From contig JACQVL010000138.1 in NCBI GenBank assembly GCA_016209865.1, forward strand, positions 1 through 14,166: a DNA stretch of 14,166 nucleotides, given 5' to 3'. This stretch comes from Candidatus Latescibacterota bacterium (lineage in GTDB: Bacteria; JAAXHH01; JACQVL01). Every line of letters begins with the position of its first letter. Positions within the stretch are counted from its first letter, which is position 1. Positions 2,751 through 14,166 of the stretch are shown piece by piece. The notes under the pieces were generated by a model. That model was not told where the DNA came from. It did no database searches and was given only the letters and a program-made list of their open reading frames with translations. The translations under genes and the position numbers were made by a program.

Positions 2751-5150
2751 CTACCCATACATCTCCCACATCCGCTCGAACGCCGCCTGCACCCCGCGCG
2801 TCTCGATGTACCGCCGGGCCGCCTCCCCCATCCGGCGCCGGGCGTCCGGGTCCGTCAGGATGGTCTGAATCGCCCGGGCGAACGCCTCCGGGTCTCGTCC
2901 ATCCGCCACCAGCCCGGTCTGGCCAGGCAGGACGTTCTCCGGCGCCCCGCCCCGGTCGGCGACGACGACGGGCAGGCCGGACGCCTGCGCCTCTAACACG
3001 ACATTCCCGAACGTCTCGATCAGGCTGGGGAACACGAACACGTCCGACGACGCGTAGACGGTGGCCAGGTCCTCCCCGTCGAGGTACCCGGTGAACCACA
3101 CCGGATAGCCCTGGAGCCGCTGTTCCAGTTCCGCCCGGTACGGCCCATCCCCGACGATGACTAAGCCGAGGCGCTGAGAGTCAGAGGACAGCCGTTTGAA
3201 GCTCTCGGCCAGGACGTTCAGGTTCTTTTCTTTCGAGAGACGGCCGACGTACAGGAGCTTCGTCCCCGCATCCACCCCGAATCGCGCCCAGATGCGTTCG
3301 TCCCGCTTGGCCGGATGGAACACCGTCGTGTCGATGCCGCGCGGCATCGTCGCCAGTTTCTTCTGGTCGAACCCGTGCGCCGCCAGATCGTCCCGAGAGG
3401 CCATCGACGAGACGAAGATCCGGTCGGTCCTCCCGTAGAACCACCGCAGGTAGCCCCACGCGAGGTTTTCCACGGACGCGTCTTCCGTGATCGCCCGGAC
3501 CTGCTCGGGCAGGTTCGAGTGGTAGACGCCCACGGATGGGAGGTCGAGGAGCTTGCTCGTCAGGAGGCCGACCAGACCGACCGGGCCGGGAGTCGAGAGC
3601 TGGTAGACCGTGAACCCGGCCTGTTCGCAGTAGTACAGGACTTCCATGAGCGGCGGGACGTAGAGGATCACCTCCGGGTACTCCGGGATGGGCAGGTCGG
3701 CGATCGCCCGGAAGTTCATGATGCCGTCTTTGTACCCGGTCGGACGGTCAGAGCAGGTGATGAGCACCATCTCCCGGCCGAGGCGCTGCGCGATGTCGAC
3801 CATCCGGGTCACGCTCTTGCCGACCCCGCCCGTCCATCCCGTCGCCCTCGGCTCGTAGACGGTGTCGCAGAACACGGCAACCTTGTGGACCGCGCGGACG
3901 GCCGGGTCGTCCAGGCCGAAGTGCCGTTCGATGCGGTCGAGGAATTCCTGGTCGCTGTGCTGATGCCGGAACGCTAAGTAATACGGCGCTAAGAAGAAGT
4001 GGGCAGACGCCAGAATACCTAAGGTGTTGAACATCCGGGGCACGTCGAACTCATTCAGGCTGTCGAACAGCTTCCGGGTGGTTTCTCCAAGGATGTCGTT
4101 AAACACCTCGTTGGCGAACGCGAACATCTGCTGACCGAACGCTTCCTGCTGACTGCGGGTGATGACCTGGAACAGGCTCAGGTCGCGGTGTTTGGCGAGC
4201 GCCGTCGTGATGCGGTCGCCGAGGATGGCGGTCAGGTCGAACTCACGGGCGGTCGTTTGTGCCTCATCCGCTGAAGGAGCCGGCTGATTCTGGGCGCCGG
4301 ACGTCAGGCTCTGGAAGAAGGAGATGTAGACGTTGCCGGGCATCGCCGACGGCCTCTCTTTGAAATACCGGTAGGCGACCGCGTAGACGGAGTGCGCCAG
4401 GGAGAGCGAAGTCCCCGGTTCCCCGCACACCTGTCCTTCCCCTTGCATGATCGCGGCCAGGAATTCTTTGTACGTCGGCGTCCCGGCGCAGGCGGTGTAC
4501 CCCCGTGCGATGAACAGGCCCGCGTGATCGTCCGAGTTGCCGACGAACCCTTTGACGTGAGGGTCAGGTCCCACCGGCTCGATTCCGTGCTTGTCGGCGA
4601 GCTGGGCGATCAACTCCGGGGTGAGCTGGCTGACGACCTTCTCGATGACTCGTCGCTGGGCGGCGATGCGTGAGCCATTCTGGAGTTCCAGCGTCTTAAA
4701 CAGGAGCAAGAGCTTCTCGAAATTGTCCGGGCTGAGCTGGTAATCGCCCGCGAACAGGGGATGGGCTAAATAGTGGGGAATCTGCTCCTGGTTCAGGAAC
4801 CGCACGACATCTAAAATATTGTCCCGGATACGCACGATCTCCCCGTGATGCGCTTCGGTGATATTCAGGGCGACGACGTCGATGACGCTCTTGTCGTTGG
4901 GAAAGTGTGTGCTGATCTCTTCGCTCACGAACGCCCCGTCCAGATGGGCGATCTCCAGCGCCCCGTCGATCACGTCGTGATCGGTGATCGTCACGAAATC
5001 CATCCCGCGGAACCGGGCGAGGTCGTACACTTGCTTGGGCGACGTGTAACACTGCGCCGCTTTCATTTTCTGGAAGAACCATTGCTGCTGGAATTCGCGC
5101 GAATACGAGGAGTGGACGTGCAGGTCCGCACAGTATCGGCCGTCGATCAT
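2751..5150 (-). CDS. Fusion of a PHP-type metal hydrolase and a GT4 glycosyltransferase
   Basis: The product is 799 residues. Residues 1 to about 240 form a PHP domain with its metal-ligand motifs in order: ADLHVHSSYS (H11, H13), TITDHD (D57, H58), SEE (76-78), HYLAHPL (H126, H130) and GNSDDHAG (D207, D208, H209). PHP proteins are phosphoesterases or hydrolases with a polynuclear metal site. Residues about 240-420 are a mainly helical linker. Residues about 423-799 are a GT4 transferase with GWTGGVGKS (438-446), H544, YVGRLSKEK (634-642), and the EX7E pair E712 and E720. I place the start at the ATG at 5150: GGAGA lies 10 bases upstream and the PHP domain begins at once. A farther start at 5267 would overlap the preceding gene by 85 bases. 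The PHP half might hydrolyse a phosphorylated precursor or product of the transferase half; that is inference. Confidence 0.9.
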   Translation of the reverse strand: MIDGRYCADLHVHSSYSREFQQQWFFQKMKAAQCYTSPKQVYDLARFRGMDFVTITDHDVIDGALEIAHLDGAFVSEEISTHFPNDKSVIDVVALNITEAHHGEIVRIRDNILDVVRFLNQEQIPHYLAHPLFAGDYQLSPDNFEKLLLLFKTLELQNGSRIAAQRRVIEKVVSQLTPELIAQLADKHGIEPVGPDPHVKGFVGNSDDHAGLFIARGYTACAGTPTYKEFLAAIMQGEGQVCGEPGTSLSLAHSVYAVAYRYFKERPSAMPGNVYISFFQSLTSGAQNQPAPSADEAQTTAREFDLTAILGDRITTALAKHRDLSLFQVITRSQQEAFGQQMFAFANEVFNDILGETTRKLFDSLNEFDVPRMFNTLGILASAHFFLAPYYLAFRHQHSDQEFLDRIERHFGLDDPAVRAVHKVAVFCDTVYEPRATGWTGGVGKSVTRMVDIAQRLGREMVLITCSDRPTGYKDGIMNFRAIADLPIPEYPEVILYVPPLMEVLYYCEQAGFTVYQLSTPGPVGLVGLLTSKLLDLPSVGVYHSNLPEQVRAITEDASVENLAWGYLRWFYGRTDRIFVSSMASRDDLAAHGFDQKKLATMPRGIDTTVFHPAKRDERIWARFGVDAGTKLLYVGRLSKEKNLNVLAESFKRLSSDSQRLGLVIVGDGPYRAELEQRLQGYPVWFTGYLDGEDLATVYASSDVFVFPSLIETFGNVVLEAQASGLPVVVADRGGAPENVLPGQTGLVADGRDPEAFARAIQTILTDPDARRRMGEAARRYIETRGVQAAFERMWEMYG

Positions 5151-5182
5151 GACAGGATGGTCTCCATGTCTCGTTGAGAGGA

Positions 5183-5500
5183 CTACAACCGCAGGTCTTC
5201 CAGGGGACGCATCACGTTCCGCAGGTGGGCCTCCCGGGACACCCGGTAGGTCGTCGCGTTGTGACACGCCAGACAGATGCGCGCGAAACGGTCGTGGAGC
5301 TTCGTCGGGTCATCAGCGAATTCAACGACGGTGACGAGATGCCCGGTCTTGCCGCAGGCCGGACACGGCTCGACCCCGTAATACCGGTTGCCCTGACACT
5401 TGTCCGGGTCGAATGAGAGGGCGTACAAGTCGTCGATGAGCAGATCGTACAGGCTGGGGGATTCCGAAGAGGGTTGCTGCTGCATCGTCTCTTCAGCCAT
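5183..5500 (-). CDS. Small zinc-ribbon protein of unknown function
   Basis: This 105-residue protein starts at the ATG at 5500, with a strong AGGAGG ribosome site at 5512-5517, 11 bases away. The first 30 residues are acidic and Gln/Ser-rich. A four-cysteine zinc ribbon follows: CPACG (C46, C49) and CLACH (C76, C79, with H80 beside it), plus a lone C35. The C-terminal 25 residues are basic to mixed and may be helical. I do not recognise a named family. Such ribbons often bind nucleic acid or act as protein-protein adaptors. The gene ends 32 bases before the PHP-glycosyltransferase gene on the same strand, so the two are probably cotranscribed and could be functionally linked. Confidence 0.75.
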   Translation of the reverse strand: MAEETMQQQPSSESPSLYDLLIDDLYALSFDPDKCQGNRYYGVEPCPACGKTGHLVTVVEFADDPTKLHDRFARICLACHNATTYRVSREAHLRNVMRPLEDLRL

Positions 5501-5522: not shown

Positions 5523-5628
5523 CTGATTCACCACAAAGACACGAAGAACACGAAGCAGAAAAATCCTGCTATTTTTTCTTTGTGCTCTTTGTGCCTTTGT
5601 GGTGATGATGGTTTACTCTGCAAGACTC
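5523..5628. repeat. Long inverted repeat, copy 2 of family A
   Basis: It has the same architecture and orientation as copy 1 (577-682), with 6 mismatches in 106 positions. It lies between the zinc-ribbon gene and the substrate-binding protein gene. Its right end, GGTTTACTCTGCAAGACTC, overlaps the last codons of the latter. The left arm starts 22 bases upstream of the zinc-ribbon ATG and just beyond its ribosome site, so any promoter for that gene would lie in or beyond the repeat. Confidence 0.9.
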
Positions 5629-7193
5629 CACTTGTACGCGTTGCGCGTGAAATGGTACCAGCTATCGACGGTCATCCCATCCCGGAGGCCGCGCACGTTC
5701 TTCTGAGCAACGAACACATAGTCGGGATAGACGAGCGGGATGAACACCGCGTCGTCGCGCAGGATGGTCAGCAACTCACGGTAGACCGCCTTGCGCTGCG
5801 CGGGCTCTGCGATCGTGCGGCCCCGTTCGAGCAGCCGATCCACGTCCGGGCTGGTGTATTTCATGTAGTTCTGGCTGCCCTTCAAGGAGAATTTTTTCGA
5901 CAGGTTCATGTCGGGATCCAACAGTCCGCTCCATCCGCCGATGATCGTGTCATGCGTCGTCCCCATGTCGTCCCCGATCTGCTGGTACCGGGTATTGTCC
6001 ACTAAGTCGAGGTCGACCGGAATCCCGACTTCGGCGAGTTGGCGTTTGATGAGGTCCCCGGAGAGCCGGCGGAAGATTTCATCCTTCCAGATGCCGATCC
6101 GGTACTCAAACCGCTGGCCGTCTTTCTGAAGTATCCCATCCGGACCGGGCTTCCATCCCGCTTCGGCGAGCAGGGCCTTCGCTCGTGCCACATCCCGGCC
6201 GGGCTTGAACAGGGAGGGGTCGTACACCGGCGAGCCGGGCGGGACCGGAAGGTACGCCGCCTGTCCCGCGCCCATCAGGGCTTCTTTCACGATCACCTCC
6301 CGGTCGATCGCGTGACTGATCGCCTGCCGCACCCGCCTATCCTGGATGAACGACCGGCGGAGGTTCTGCGGCATCCCGCGCCATGCGCCACTGGGAAAGC
6401 GGTACACGGCCAGGTCGGGGTTCTGCTTCAGCATCGCGATGTGCTGCGGCTTGACCTGCGTGATGTGGAACGCGCCCGCCGCCGCCATCCTGGCCCGCTC
6501 ATCATCGTCCGGGACGATGCGCAGGAGGATGCGTTTGATGGGGGTTGGATTGGCGCTCAGATGAAAACGCGCATTCCGCTCGAACACCCATTCCCGGTCA
6601 CTCACTTTCTGGATCAACGTGTACGGCCCCGTCCCCACGGGATTCTTCTCGAACGCCTCCCCGTTGATGTCCTGCCCGTCGAGGATGTGCCGGGGAAGAA
6701 TCGGGGGATCGCTCAACTTCGACAGGAACGACGAACTGGGCGCGCTCAGGATGACGATGAACGTGTCCGGAGCTTTTGCCGCGTACGTCTTCACCATGCT
6801 CAAATCGGCGTCGTACGCGGTCTTCGTGTTCGGGGCGAAGATCATATCGAACGTAAATCGAACATCCTCCGGGGTGAACGGGACGCCGTCATGCCAGACC
6901 ACGTTCCGCCGCAGGACGAACGTGTACGTCAGTCCGTCCGGCGACACGGTGTAGCGTTCGACGAGGTCGGGCAAGAGCTGTCCCTGCTCATCGATCTGGA
7001 ACAGCCGGCTCAGGATCAGACAGCTCACCTCGCTCCAGTCGTTTTTCTCCAACAGTGGATTGAGGCCGCGTGGAACCAACCCGCCGCCGTAAACCAGCTC
7101 ATCCTTCACGGGCGCCTGCCTCCACGACACACTCAAGCTACTCATCACCCCCGCGATCAGCAGCCCAACCAGCCACCTCACTCGCCTTCTCAT
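5613..7193 (-). CDS. Periplasmic ABC-transporter solute-binding protein, family 5 (oligopeptide/nickel type)
   Basis: This 526-residue protein starts at the ATG at 7193, four bases after an AGAGGGGG ribosome site. Residues 1-24 are a signal peptide: arginines (RRR), then a hydrophobic core WLVGLLIAGVMSSLS. There is no cysteine lipobox, so the mature protein should be soluble in the periplasm. Family-5 landmarks follow: PDLVERYTVSPDGLTYTF, the WHDG and PFTPEDVRFTFD stretch, NPVGTGPY, DRRVRQAISHAIDRE, and a late block around YRELLTILRDDAVFIPL. Such proteins capture peptides, nickel chelates or opines and hand them to a membrane permease. No permease or ATPase gene lies in this window, so its transporter partners are elsewhere. 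The last four codons (S-L-A-E) and the stop come from the repeat at 5523-5628. The family call is firm; the ligand is unknown. Confidence 0.92.
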   Translation of the reverse strand: MRRRVRWLVGLLIAGVMSSLSVSWRQAPVKDELVYGGGLVPRGLNPLLEKNDWSEVSCLILSRLFQIDEQGQLLPDLVERYTVSPDGLTYTFVLRRNVVWHDGVPFTPEDVRFTFDMIFAPNTKTAYDADLSMVKTYAAKAPDTFIVILSAPSSSFLSKLSDPPILPRHILDGQDINGEAFEKNPVGTGPYTLIQKVSDREWVFERNARFHLSANPTPIKRILLRIVPDDDERARMAAAGAFHITQVKPQHIAMLKQNPDLAVYRFPSGAWRGMPQNLRRSFIQDRRVRQAISHAIDREVIVKEALMGAGQAAYLPVPPGSPVYDPSLFKPGRDVARAKALLAEAGWKPGPDGILQKDGQRFEYRIGIWKDEIFRRLSGDLIKRQLAEVGIPVDLDLVDNTRYQQIGDDMGTTHDTIIGGWSGLLDPDMNLSKKFSLKGSQNYMKYTSPDVDRLLERGRTIAEPAQRKAVYRELLTILRDDAVFIPLVYPDYVFVAQKNVRGLRDGMTVDSWYHFTRNAYKWSLAE

Positions 7194-7213
7194 CAAGCCC
7201 CCTCTTTTATCTC

Positions 7214-7241
7214 GTCACTTGTCACTTGTCACTCTTCACTG
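7214..7241. repeat. 7-base tandem repeat, four units
   Basis: The units are GTCACTT, GTCACTT, GTCACTC and TTCACTG in unbroken register. The block shares the string CACTCTTCACTGCCT with the right end of the heptamer block at 1494-1528. It lies between the proposed minus-strand promoter and the ATG of the substrate-binding protein gene, so it would be in that mRNA's leader. Confidence 0.8.
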
Positions 7242-7256
7242 CCTTTCCAGCCCTAT

Positions 7257-7285
7257 ACCCTACGTTAAATCACTCGATTTGTCAA
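7257..7285 (-). promoter_or_regulatory. Candidate sigma-70 promoter for the minus-strand arm
   Basis: On the minus strand, a perfect TTGACA (-35; 7285 to 7280) is followed after 17 bases by TAGGGT (-10; 7262 to 7257), which keeps the T, A and final T of the consensus. It would drive the substrate-binding protein gene starting at 7193. The -10 is poor, so this is weaker evidence than the plus-strand promoter it mirrors. Confidence 0.5.
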
Positions 7286-7311
7286 CTCAGAAAACGTTTT
7301 TCGTGTTGACA
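7280..7311. promoter_or_regulatory. 32-base near-palindrome, candidate shared operator
   Basis: TGTCAAC (7280-7286) and GTTGACA (7305-7311) are perfect inverted arms. AAAACGTTTT (7291-7300) is a perfect palindrome with exactly the same centre (between 7295 and 7296). In all, 13 of 16 base pairs are symmetric. Each outer arm contains a TTGACA -35 box, one per strand, so a protein bound here would cover both divergent promoters. The regulator is unknown and not encoded in the window as far as I can tell. Confidence 0.65.
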
Positions 7312-7334
7312 GGGAGACAGCCTCACCCTATCCT
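7306..7334 (+). promoter_or_regulatory. Sigma-70 promoter for the PspC-domain gene
   Basis: TTGACA (7306-7311) is a perfect -35. After exactly 17 bases comes TATCCT (7329-7334), 4 of 6 matches to the -10. Initiation would fall near 7341, giving a leader of about 30 bases to the ATG at 7373. The -35 box lies in the right arm of the palindrome at 7280-7311. Confidence 0.72.
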
Positions 7335-7372
7335 TGAGACGTGACACTGTCCAGAGAATGGGAGGAATGTCG

Positions 7373-7582
7373 ATGAAACGACTGTACCGCTCGACACAAG
7401 ACAAGAAGATTGCAGGTATTTGTGGGGGATTGGGTGAGTACTTTGACCTCGACCCGACCCTCGTCCGTTTCCTGCTCGTCCTGGCCATCTTCATCACGGG
7501 GGGGTTGGTCATTCCGGCCTACCTCATCGGCATCTGGATCATTCCCAACGATTCAGAGAGAACCGAGGATGAATCGATCTAA
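7373..7582 (+). CDS. PspC-domain small membrane protein
   Basis: This 69-residue protein matches the PspC domain. It has the N-terminal signature KRLYRSTQDKKIAGICGGLG (2-21), then EYFDLDPTLVRF (22-33), then a hydrophobic stretch of about residues 32-57 and a short acidic tail. In the phage-shock system PspC is an inner-membrane partner that senses envelope stress; stand-alone short PspC proteins like this one are common and their roles are less clear. The start is the ATG at 7373, six bases after GGGAGGA. An ATG six bases earlier is too close to that site. The rhodanese gene follows 36 bases later, as in E. coli, where a rhodanese (PspE) belongs to the phage-shock operon. That parallel is suggestive only, because the rhodanese here is a different, two-domain type. 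Confidence 0.9.
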   Translation: MKRLYRSTQDKKIAGICGGLGEYFDLDPTLVRFLLVLAIFITGGLVIPAYLIGIWIIPNDSERTEDESI

Positions 7583-7618: not shown

Positions 7619-8464
7619 ATGAGCCAGCCCGAACCGGCATCTTCCGTTTCTTCGTTCCTGATCGAGCCCCTGGCACTGCTCGAACAACGGGAGACGCTGA
7701 ACCCTCTCGTCATCGACACGCGGCCGCCGGAGCCGTACGCCGCTGGTCATCTCCCCGGCGCGATCAACTGTAGTACGTACGACCAGTTCGTGAAGAGCAC
7801 CAGTCCGCTCGGCCTCAGTCGATTCCAACGGGAGATCGCTCAACTCTACGGCGCCGCGGGCGTCACGCCGTCCAGACCGGTCGTCGTGTACGAGGACCAG
7901 ACCGGGATGCGGGCGGCGCGTGAATTATGGATGCTGCAGTACCTCGGCCATCCGGACGTGCGCCTGCTCCACGGCGGGCTGAACGCCTGGCAGGAGGCGG
8001 GCGGGCCGGTCGAGACGGATGTCCCGACCGTGAAGCCTGGGACGTTCACGGTCACTTCACGTCCCGACCTCGTCATCGGGGTCAACGAGATTCTCGCCCG
8101 GTGCGAGTCCTCGGACACGACGATCTTGGACGTGCGCGCCCGGGACGAGTACACTGGCGACGGCGGGCCATCGTGCTGCGTCCGGCGGGGACGTATCCCC
8201 GGCGCGGTCTGGCTGGAATGGACGGAGTTTTTGAACGGCGAGACCGGACGGTTGAAACCGCCGGATGAAATCCTCCGGGTGTTGCGGGACCACGGGATCG
8301 ACCCGGCCCGCGAGATCGTGACGTACTGTCACCGCGGAGCGCGTTCGGCTAACGCGCACCTGGCCCTGCGGACCGCCGGATGCGCGAACGTGCGGAATTT
8401 CATCGGCTCCTGGCATGAGTGGGCCGCCCGCTCCGACCTGCCGATCGAGAGCGGCGGAGTGTGA
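7619..8464 (+). CDS. Two-domain rhodanese (thiosulfate / 3-mercaptopyruvate sulfurtransferase)
   Basis: This 281-residue protein has tandem rhodanese domains. The N-domain (about 15-130) carries VIDTRPPEPYAAGHLPGA (31-48) and HGGLNAW (118-124), but its active-loop position reads YEDQTGMRA (91-99) with no cysteine, so it is inactive, as usual. The C-domain (about 150-275) carries LDVRARDEYTG (170-180), RGRIPGAVWLEW (190-201) and the active loop CHRGARS, with C237 as the sulfur carrier. The enzyme moves sulfane sulfur from thiosulfate or mercaptopyruvate to cyanide, thiols or acceptor proteins. The CHRGARS loop differs from the CGSGVTA loop of mercaptopyruvate enzymes, so thiosulfate is somewhat more likely. 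The ATG follows a GTGAGG site by six bases. It probably shares the PspC gene's promoter. Confidence 0.92.
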   Translation: MSQPEPASSVSSFLIEPLALLEQRETLNPLVIDTRPPEPYAAGHLPGAINCSTYDQFVKSTSPLGLSRFQREIAQLYGAAGVTPSRPVVVYEDQTGMRAARELWMLQYLGHPDVRLLHGGLNAWQEAGGPVETDVPTVKPGTFTVTSRPDLVIGVNEILARCESSDTTILDVRARDEYTGDGGPSCCVRRGRIPGAVWLEWTEFLNGETGRLKPPDEILRVLRDHGIDPAREIVTYCHRGARSANAHLALRTAGCANVRNFIGSWHEWAARSDLPIESGGV

Positions 8465-8468
8465 GGAC

Positions 8469-8496
8469 GGTGGTCGGTGGTCAGTGATCGGTGGTC
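8469..8496. repeat. 7-base tandem repeat, four units
   Basis: GGTGGTC occurs at 8469-8475, 8476-8482 and 8490-8496, with AGTGATC (two changes) at 8483-8489. It starts four bases after the rhodanese stop codon. Nothing coding is apparent. It is the same unit length as the heptamer blocks at 1436-1528 and 7214-7241, though the sequence differs. Confidence 0.8.
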
Positions 8497-8525
8497 GGTT
8501 AGAAACGACCTCAACGGATTTTCGG

Positions 8526-8554
8526 TTGACGAGAGGGGTGCCGTGCTGTACATT
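8526..8554 (+). promoter_or_regulatory. Sigma-70 promoter upstream of the Uma2 gene
   Basis: TTGACG (8526-8531, 5 of 6) and TACATT (8549-8554, 4 of 6) are separated by exactly 17 bases, followed by A/T-rich TAAAAAG. Initiation near 8561 would give a leader of about 37 bases before the ATG at 8598. miaB could also be read from here. Confidence 0.65.
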
Positions 8555-8597
8555 AAAAAGCTGCCGGCGAGATGAGAGATTGCTGTGAGGTTCTCGT

Positions 8598-9149
8598 ATG
8601 ATTACGAAAACCCGTACTACCATCGAAGACCTCTATCACGTGCCTGAAAACGGCAAGGCTGAGATTGTCAATGGAGAACTCGTCCTGATGTCCCCGACAG
8701 GTGGTAGACCAGGTCGCGCAAGCGGGAAGGTTTATCGTAGTCTGGACGATTATGAACGCCGCACGGGCAGAGGCTATGCGTTTGGGGATAATGTTGGGTT
8801 CATCGTCGACTTGCCGAACCGTCAATCTTTCAGCCCCGATGCAGCCTTTTATACAGGCCAGATTGAAGGGATGAAGTTTCTCAAAGGGGCGCCGATCTTC
8901 GCCGTCGAAATCAGAAGCGAAAACGATTATGGCCCGGCTGCTGAGAAGGAGATCGCTGCCAAACGAGCCGACTACTTCGCGGCTGGAACTCTTGTGGTCT
9001 GGGATGTGGATTTGCTTGGGATAGATGTCATCAAAGTTTACCGTACAAATGATCCGAATAGCCCAACTATTCATCGCCGTGGCGAAATGGCTGAAGCGGA
9101 ACCAGCCTTGCCTGGCTGGCGAATGCCGGTGGATGATTTGTTTACCTGA
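8598..9149 (+). CDS. Uma2-family (DUF820) PD-(D/E)XK endonuclease-like protein
   Basis: This 183-residue protein fits the Uma2 family, a restriction-endonuclease-like fold of uncertain cellular role that is abundant in cyanobacteria and some other phyla, often in many copies. It shows AEIVNGELVLMSPTG (21-35), the metal-binding D81 in SFSPDAAFY, E104 in FAVEIRS, and K122 with Y126 in AKRADYFAAGTLVVWDVD. These are the expected positions of the D, E and K of the active site, so it looks intact. The ATG follows GTGAGG by seven bases and has its own promoter. GC is clearly lower than the neighbours: two sampled 60-base stretches give 53% and 47%, against 68% in a stretch of miaB. This points to recent transfer. 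The DNA target and whether it cuts in vivo are unknown. Confidence 0.87.
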   Translation: MITKTRTTIEDLYHVPENGKAEIVNGELVLMSPTGGRPGRASGKVYRSLDDYERRTGRGYAFGDNVGFIVDLPNRQSFSPDAAFYTGQIEGMKFLKGAPIFAVEIRSENDYGPAAEKEIAAKRADYFAAGTLVVWDVDLLGIDVIKVYRTNDPNSPTIHRRGEMAEAEPALPGWRMPVDDLFT

Positions 9150-9180
9150 CCCCACCGTTTCCTATACCTGAATTCGATCA

Positions 9181-10515
9181 ATGAATTTCCCAATCCGCAA
9201 TCGGTCTCAGGCGCTGTACGTCGAGACGTACGGCTGTCAGATGAACAAGTCCGACTCGGAGCTGATCGTCGGCCTGCTGACGCGCGACGGCTACCGGCTG
9301 GTCGATGACGTGAGCCGGGCGGACGTCATCTTAGTCAACACTTGCGCCATCCGGGAGCACGCGGAGACGCGCGTCCTCGGCCGCATGGCGGAGTTGAACC
9401 ATCTGAAAGCGTCCAACCCCGACCTCATCCTCGGCCTCTGCGGGTGCATGTCGCAGCACCTCGGCGAGAACATCCTGGACAAAGCGCCGTACATCGACCT
9501 GGTCGTCGGGCCGGACGGATACCGCCGGCTGCCGGAGATGATCCGCTCGCTCGACCAGAACCGGGAACCGGCCCTCAGCCTGGCCCTCGACAAGACGGAG
9601 CACTACCTCGCCCTCGACCCGGTCCGCGAGCCGGGCGTCAACGCCTGGGTGACGATCATGCGGGGGTGCGACAAATTCTGCACGTTCTGCATCGTCCCCT
9701 ACGTCCGTGGACGGGAGCGGAGCACCCCGCATCAGGAGATCCTCCGTCAGGTCGAACGTCTGGCCGCCGAAGGCTACCGGGAAGTGACCCTGCTCGGCCA
9801 GACGGTCAACGCCTACCAGGATGGGGCGATTGATTTTGCCGGTCTCTTGCAGATGGTCGCGGACGTTGACGGGATCGAGCGTGTCCGGTTCACCGCGCCG
9901 CACCCCAGCCACTTCTCCGACCGGCTGATCGATGTCATGGCGGATCACCCACGGGTCTGCAAACATGCCCATTTGCCGCTCCAGTCAGGCTCAACCCGCA
10001 TCCTGCGGGCGATGCGGCGGGACTACACCGCCGAGGAGTACGTAGCGCTCGTCTCGAACCTCCGGACGCGCATCCCCGGCCTGGCGCTGACGACGGACAT
10101 CATCGTCGGGTTCTGCGGAGAGTCGGAGGAGGACTTTCAGGCGACGTACGACCTGATGGCCGCCGTCCGGTTTGATTCCGCGTTCATGTTCAAATACTCC
10201 CCGCGGGAGGGCACGGCGGCGTACCGGAAGCTGGCGGACGACGTGCCGGAGGGCGAGAAGAGCCGCCGGCTGACCGCCATCATCGACCGGCAGAAGGCAA
10301 TCTCAGAGGAACGCAACCGGGCGTACATCGGCCGGATGGTGGAGGTGCTCGTCGAGGGCGAATCCAAACGGGACGCCGATCATCTGTTCGGCAAGACGGA
10401 CACGTTCAAGACGGTCGTGTTCCCGAAGACGGCGGGCGTGCGGGCGCAGACGCTCGTGCCCGTTCACATCGACCGGGCGACCGCGTTCACGTTGTTCGGG
10501 ACGAGCAGGCGTTGA
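9181..10515 (+). CDS. miaB: tRNA-2-methylthio-N6-dimethylallyladenosine synthase MiaB
   Basis: This 444-residue radical-SAM methylthiotransferase adds the 2-methylthio group to N6-isopentenyl-A37 of tRNAs that read codons starting with U. The N-terminal UPF0004 domain has ETYGCQMN (C19), NTCAIREHAE (C55) and LCGCM (C89), which bind the auxiliary 4Fe-4S cluster. The radical-SAM domain has C163-x3-C167-x2-C170 in RGCDKFCTFCIVPYVRGRE. The C-terminal region from about 380 is the TRAM domain that binds tRNA. VNTCAIRE and the length support MiaB over MtaB or RimO. An in-frame TGA at 9169 limits the start to the ATG at 9181, but no Shine-Dalgarno sequence precedes it. That fits readthrough from the Uma2 gene 31 bases upstream or a weak leader. 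No other tRNA-modification gene is nearby. Confidence 0.96.
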   Translation: MNFPIRNRSQALYVETYGCQMNKSDSELIVGLLTRDGYRLVDDVSRADVILVNTCAIREHAETRVLGRMAELNHLKASNPDLILGLCGCMSQHLGENILDKAPYIDLVVGPDGYRRLPEMIRSLDQNREPALSLALDKTEHYLALDPVREPGVNAWVTIMRGCDKFCTFCIVPYVRGRERSTPHQEILRQVERLAAEGYREVTLLGQTVNAYQDGAIDFAGLLQMVADVDGIERVRFTAPHPSHFSDRLIDVMADHPRVCKHAHLPLQSGSTRILRAMRRDYTAEEYVALVSNLRTRIPGLALTTDIIVGFCGESEEDFQATYDLMAAVRFDSAFMFKYSPREGTAAYRKLADDVPEGEKSRRLTAIIDRQKAISEERNRAYIGRMVEVLVEGESKRDADHLFGKTDTFKTVVFPKTAGVRAQTLVPVHIDRATAFTLFGTSRR

Positions 10516-13152: not shown

Positions 13153-13243
13153 TTTTCACCACAAAGACACAAAGGACACCAAGAAAGAGTATCAAATCAT
13201 TGTGATTTTCTTTGTGCTCTTTGTGTCTTTGTGGTGAGAAAAT
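13153..13243. repeat. Long inverted repeat, copy 3 of family A (diverged)
   Basis: The arms are TTTTCACCACAAAGACAC (from 13153) and GTGTCTTTGTGGTGAGAAAA (to 13242), around an A/T-rich centre. The right arm CTTTGTGCTCTTTGTGTC is identical to that in copy 1 (577-682) and in the same orientation. The left arm and centre have drifted, and the ACTCTGCAAGACTC flank of copies 1 and 2 is absent. It starts three bases after the dehydrogenase stop and could act as an RNA hairpin separating it from the next gene. Confidence 0.88.
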
Positions 13244-14113: not shown

Positions 14114-14166
14114 CCCCCGCTCCCCCTTCCCCTCTCCGCAAGCGGAGAGGGGAAGGGGGCTGGGGG
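14114..14166. repeat. GC-rich perfect hairpin repeat, cut by window end
   Basis: CCCCCTTCCCCTCTCCGC (14122-14139) is followed after AA by its exact reverse complement (14142-14159). A second outer pairing, CCCCC (14114-14118) with GGGGG (14162-14166), extends it past a small internal bulge. The run starts 87 bases after the isomerase stop. No uridine run follows within the window, so I call it a repeat and not a terminator. Confidence 0.85.

Follow-up and report, generated by a model that had tools for sequence, protein, structure and literature searches.

A near-palindrome between divergent genes of a Candidatus Latescibacterota genome is probably a pair of back-to-back sigma-70-type promoters

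Introduction

The 14,166-nt stretch of Candidatus Latescibacterota DNA analysed here (contig JACQVL010000138.1, hereafter the window) contains a 32-base near-palindrome in the gap between two divergent gene groups. Is this site the operator of a dimeric regulator, or is it what two promoters look like when they stand back to back? The first-pass annotation had seen two opposed sigma-70 promoters and, over them, the binding site of a dimeric protein that would switch both at once and link envelope stress to glycan building. We compared the site with the rest of its genome, with the genomes of its order and with an orthologous locus.

Results

The divergent gene arrangement

The genes that flank the site are listed below.

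5613..7196, minus strand: ABC-type solute-binding protein of family 5 (SBP_bac_5; PF00496, 7e-76), with the ATG likely at 7193
7373..7582, plus strand: small PspC-domain membrane protein of 69 aa (PF04024, 1.3e-22), with GGAGG 7 nt before the ATG at 7373
7619..8464, plus strand: two-domain rhodanese (sulfurtransferase; PF00581, 3e-37)

The layout is divergent, as had been described, with SBP_bac_5 on the minus strand and PspC followed by rhodanese on the plus strand. For pspC, the best placed start is 7373, the one preceded by GGAGG. A gap of 36 nt separates pspC from the rhodanese gene, which is probably co-transcribed with it. Neither the Rfam nor the tRNA scan of the window returned a match. 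Farther along, rhodanese and miaB adjoin on the same strand (7619-10515), as they also do in the relative G013 (locus L049), and a Uma2-like gene follows rhodanese in the window and apparently in the relative G011 too. On the minus strand, an 838-aa protein is encoded at 2751-5267; its C-terminal half is a family-4 glycosyltransferase, and its N-terminal half, for which no Pfam match was found, opens with a PHP-phosphoesterase-like motif, YCADLHVHSSYS, recognised by eye.

Several repeats were noticed in the window. One of them lies close to the site:

7205..7250, no strand assigned: one copy of a (TGACAAG/TGACGAG)n repeat that is dispersed in the genome, located in what is predicted to be the mRNA leader of the solute-binding-protein gene (genome search and alignment)

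This 7-base unit, often found after GGCAGTGACGAG, gave more than 40 matches across the genome (L002-L008 besides the window copy). A near-perfect long inverted repeat, CCCCCTTCCCCTCTCCGC-AAGCGGAGAGGGGAAGGGGG, lies between genes at the window end (14122-14160) and scored 15 of 16 pairs in the 32-base test. The stretches at about 5550-5580 and about 13160-13230 are dispersed-repeat-like, with short ORFs HHKDTKNTKQKN / HHKDTKDTKKEY typical of CACCACAAAGACACNAAG repeats.

The near-palindrome and the two promoters

The elements of the site are as follows.

7280..7311, no strand assigned: 32-base imperfect palindrome (13/16), AAAACGTTTT between two outward TTGACA
7306..7311, plus strand: -35 hexamer TTGACA of the rightward promoter (sequence scan), recurring in G011
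7329..7334, plus strand: -10 hexamer TATCCT after a 17-nt spacer, predicted transcription start near 7341; the same TTGACA-N17-TATCCT is found in the ortholog
7280..7285, minus strand: -35 hexamer TTGACA of the leftward promoter, with an outward TTGACA also in G011
7257..7262, minus strand: weak -10 hexamer TAGGGT after a 17-nt spacer, predicted start near 7250

The description given by the first-pass annotation was accurate in its letters. Recounting the 32-mer TGTCAACTCAGAAAACGTTTTTCGTGTTGACA gave 13 of 16 complementary pairs, the mismatches falling at pairs 6, 7 and 9 when counted outward from the middle. The whole palindrome and its core AAAACGTTTT (7291-7300) have one and the same centre, 7295/7296, and each arm holds one perfect TTGACA, on the plus strand at 7306-7311 and on the minus strand at 7285-7280. 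A -10-like hexamer of the A..T type follows each -35 after 17 bases. The plus-strand promoter (7306-7334) matches at 10 of 12 positions and was returned by the promoter scan; the minus-strand TTGACA-N17-TAGGGT, whose -10 at 7262-7257 matches TATAAT at 3 of 6 positions with A2 and T6 kept, was not among the promoters reported by that scan. Outward -35/-10 sets, spaced by 17 nt and so within the 16-18 nt of sigma-70-type promoters, are therefore present on both strands, the minus-strand -10 being weak.

Six of the 13 palindrome pairs are the two TTGACA hexamers themselves. Since two TTGACA that face outward are reverse complements of each other, the outer arms of the palindrome arise by nature from such a promoter pair. 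In a simulation with the dinucleotide content of the window, 0.11 even palindromes of at least 13/16 were expected per window (P about 0.10), and a match of this quality is unusual, not rare, in a window of this composition.

Outward pairs across the genome and the order

The pattern searches were controlled with reversed patterns, and this genome is 83% complete. With up to 2 mismatches, TTGACA-N17-TATCCT was found 243 times in this genome versus 63 times for the reversed control, indicating that it is the general promoter form of the genome. Outward TGTCAA-N5..35-TTGACA occurred 18 times versus 2 for the reversed pattern, an enrichment of about 9-fold, and the inward arrangement only 3 times. 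Over the 16 genomes of the order, outward pairs numbered 6-24 per genome versus 0-7 in the control. The flanks of the 18 pairs were also informative: of the 36, 25 had nAnnnT at a spacing of exactly 17 nt, versus 0-6 (about 2) at each of the other offsets (8-39). By crude ORF picking, most of the 18 pairs have ORFs reading away on either side. Their spacings run 8, 12, 15, 16, 16, 20, 20, 21 and so on up to 35, and the 20-nt spacing of the window site is nothing special among them.

The orthologous locus

Within the order/phylum set of 16 genomes, the solute-binding-protein gene was present in two. The second copy lies in G011:C315 (VGJU01000315.1), from a MAG titled Candidatus Zixiibacteriota. 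A scan of the genome collection with the solute-binding protein returned only this same ortholog and one distant Clostridium match, and the viral contigs gave no match. In G011:C315, the solute-binding protein is 58% and the rhodanese 55% identical to those of the window, and the two genes are again divergent; no pspC is present between promoter and rhodanese. The gap keeps TTGACA-N17-TATCCT at L045 1510-1538, where 0.01 was expected in the locus, and on its minus strand a TTGACA at 1456-1451 faces outward, with TATAAA after a 16-nt spacer (TTGACA-N16-TATAAA, 1456-1429). The homology of this promoter gap is based on synteny and the shared hexamers. The distance from -35 to -35 is 53 nt, versus 20 nt in the window, and AAAACGTTTT was not found between the -35s. 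The ortholog thus keeps both -35 hexamers and the -10 of the plus strand, and not the palindrome, as independent promoters predict, unlike an operator. In G013, the rhodanese ortholog has a same-strand gene upstream, and the divergent promoter pair was not found there.

The proposal of two opposed sigma-70-type promoters therefore stands, given that they fit the promoter type of the genome and recur in the solute-binding-protein/rhodanese gap of this ortholog.

Operator, single promoter or stress switch

A palindrome serving as operator, on which a dimeric regulator covers both -35s and represses or activates the two promoters together, was weighed against these data. The symmetry is concentric, and the 20 inner bases alone pair at 7 of 10 positions (p about 0.006 versus a shuffle of the same bases), a level reached by only 1 of 52 mismatched halves. 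The core is palindromic with a central CG, as is usual in certain repressor families, LacI among them. However, this p value is the best of the 18 outward-pair sites examined in this genome, and one such site among 18 has a chance probability of about 0.1. Spacer symmetry is also no property of these sites: in 39 outward pairs drawn from this genome and from G013, it was 0.32 within own halves and 0.30 between halves of different sites (permutation P 0.19), and 0.31 without the window's site (P 0.34). Moreover, AAAACGTTTT occurs once in the whole genome (3.75 Mb) and so defines no regulon, although a regulator with a single target would need no copies. For GAAAACGTTTT, 0-10 occurrences per genome were counted in the order on both strands. 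No second exact TGTCAAC-N18-GTTGACA was found in this genome; the two single-mismatch matches have unrelated centres, and when as many as 3 mismatches were allowed, 131 places per strand matched, versus 59 in the control. Both the core and the 20-nt spacing are absent from the G011 ortholog. The first-pass annotation had staked its regulator on conservation of the symmetric positions, and in the gap of this one ortholog only the -35 hexamers among them are kept. No regulator gene was seen among the neighbouring proteins scanned. The operator was accordingly rejected as the main explanation, its core, spacing and symmetry being unconserved, its core single in the genome and a regulator gene missing nearby; we consider it improbable, and a dedicated dimeric regulator is presumably absent. 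For a local operator used only at this site the chance is similarly small, and it is slim for a lineage-specific, single-target dimeric regulator that binds the 32-mer, masks both -35s and couples expression of the solute-binding protein to that of pspC-rhodanese.

The weak minus-strand -10 raises another possibility, that the leftward TTGACA matches by chance, which would leave the rightward promoter as the only real one and give the solute-binding-protein gene a different start. TAGGGT matches at 3 of 6 positions and went unreported by the promoter scan, and one TTGACA per strand by chance is not impossible. On the other hand, the roughly 9-fold excess of outward pairs, which generally carry a -10 at 17 nt on each side, and the outward TTGACA towards the solute-binding-protein gene in the G011 ortholog make this reading unlikely. 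The proposed switch joining envelope stress (PspC) to glycan building fared worst. It draws on the names of the flanking genes only, yet the immediate minus-strand gene encodes a solute-binding protein and is no glycan gene, the ortholog is without pspC, the pspC-like genes of order relatives sit elsewhere without this locus, and the symmetry is not conserved. pspC is thus no fixed member of the locus, and such a switch is most improbable.

Discussion

Taken together, the site very probably consists of two ordinary housekeeping promoters of the sigma-70 type, independent of each other and standing back to back in the gap between divergent genes (probability about 0.87). It lies between SBP_bac_5 on the minus strand and pspC-rhodanese on the plus strand, matches the promoter type of its own genome and is conserved at the orthologous locus, as judged from one ortholog. 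The RNA polymerase holoenzyme that carries the main sigma factor would bind in either direction in the standard mode. The rightward TTGACA-N17-TATCCT would transcribe pspC and rhodanese, and the leftward, weaker TTGACA-N17-TAGGGT would transcribe the family-5 solute-binding protein and perhaps genes beyond it. Both promoters are predicted to be active; the -10 elements place the putative starts near 7341 (plus) and 7250 (minus), so that the leaders would measure about 32 and 57 nt. With about 90 nt between these predicted starts, two polymerases may share a little of the DNA that they contact upstream, and the two promoters may interfere with each other to some degree. An A/T-rich core, centred by chance between the -35s, would complete the palindromic look.

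The window site is an ordinary feature, as back-to-back pairs are found many times in this genome. Any perfect outward -35 pair automatically mimics a palindromic operator. For this little-studied lineage, a strict TTGACA-N17-TAnnnT promoter and many close divergent pairs are useful to know in annotation.

Three known arrangements may be compared with the site. Operators of LacI/TetR-type dimeric repressors are inverted repeats between divergent promoters, and the window likewise has an inverted repeat between two promoters; unlike them, its site is unconserved, its core is without a second copy and no regulator gene was found nearby. In the bidirectional promoters of E. coli, as outlined in PMC12825309 (citing Warman et al. 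2021), a single -10 element is shared, and transcription begins within it or to either side. That type resembles the window site in its near-symmetric DNA and in transcription both ways, which is predicted for the window site, whereas the -10s of the window (7257-7262 and 7329-7334) are about 66 nt apart with the -35 sides inward. Since the -10s are separate and only the -35 sides face inward, the window site is not of the shared -10 type. The closest likeness is to divergent back-to-back sigma-70 pairs, which place two outward -35/-10 sets between divergent genes, as the window does with its two sets. Nothing essential separates the site from them; its -35s are both perfect and by chance enclose a symmetric A/T-rich core.
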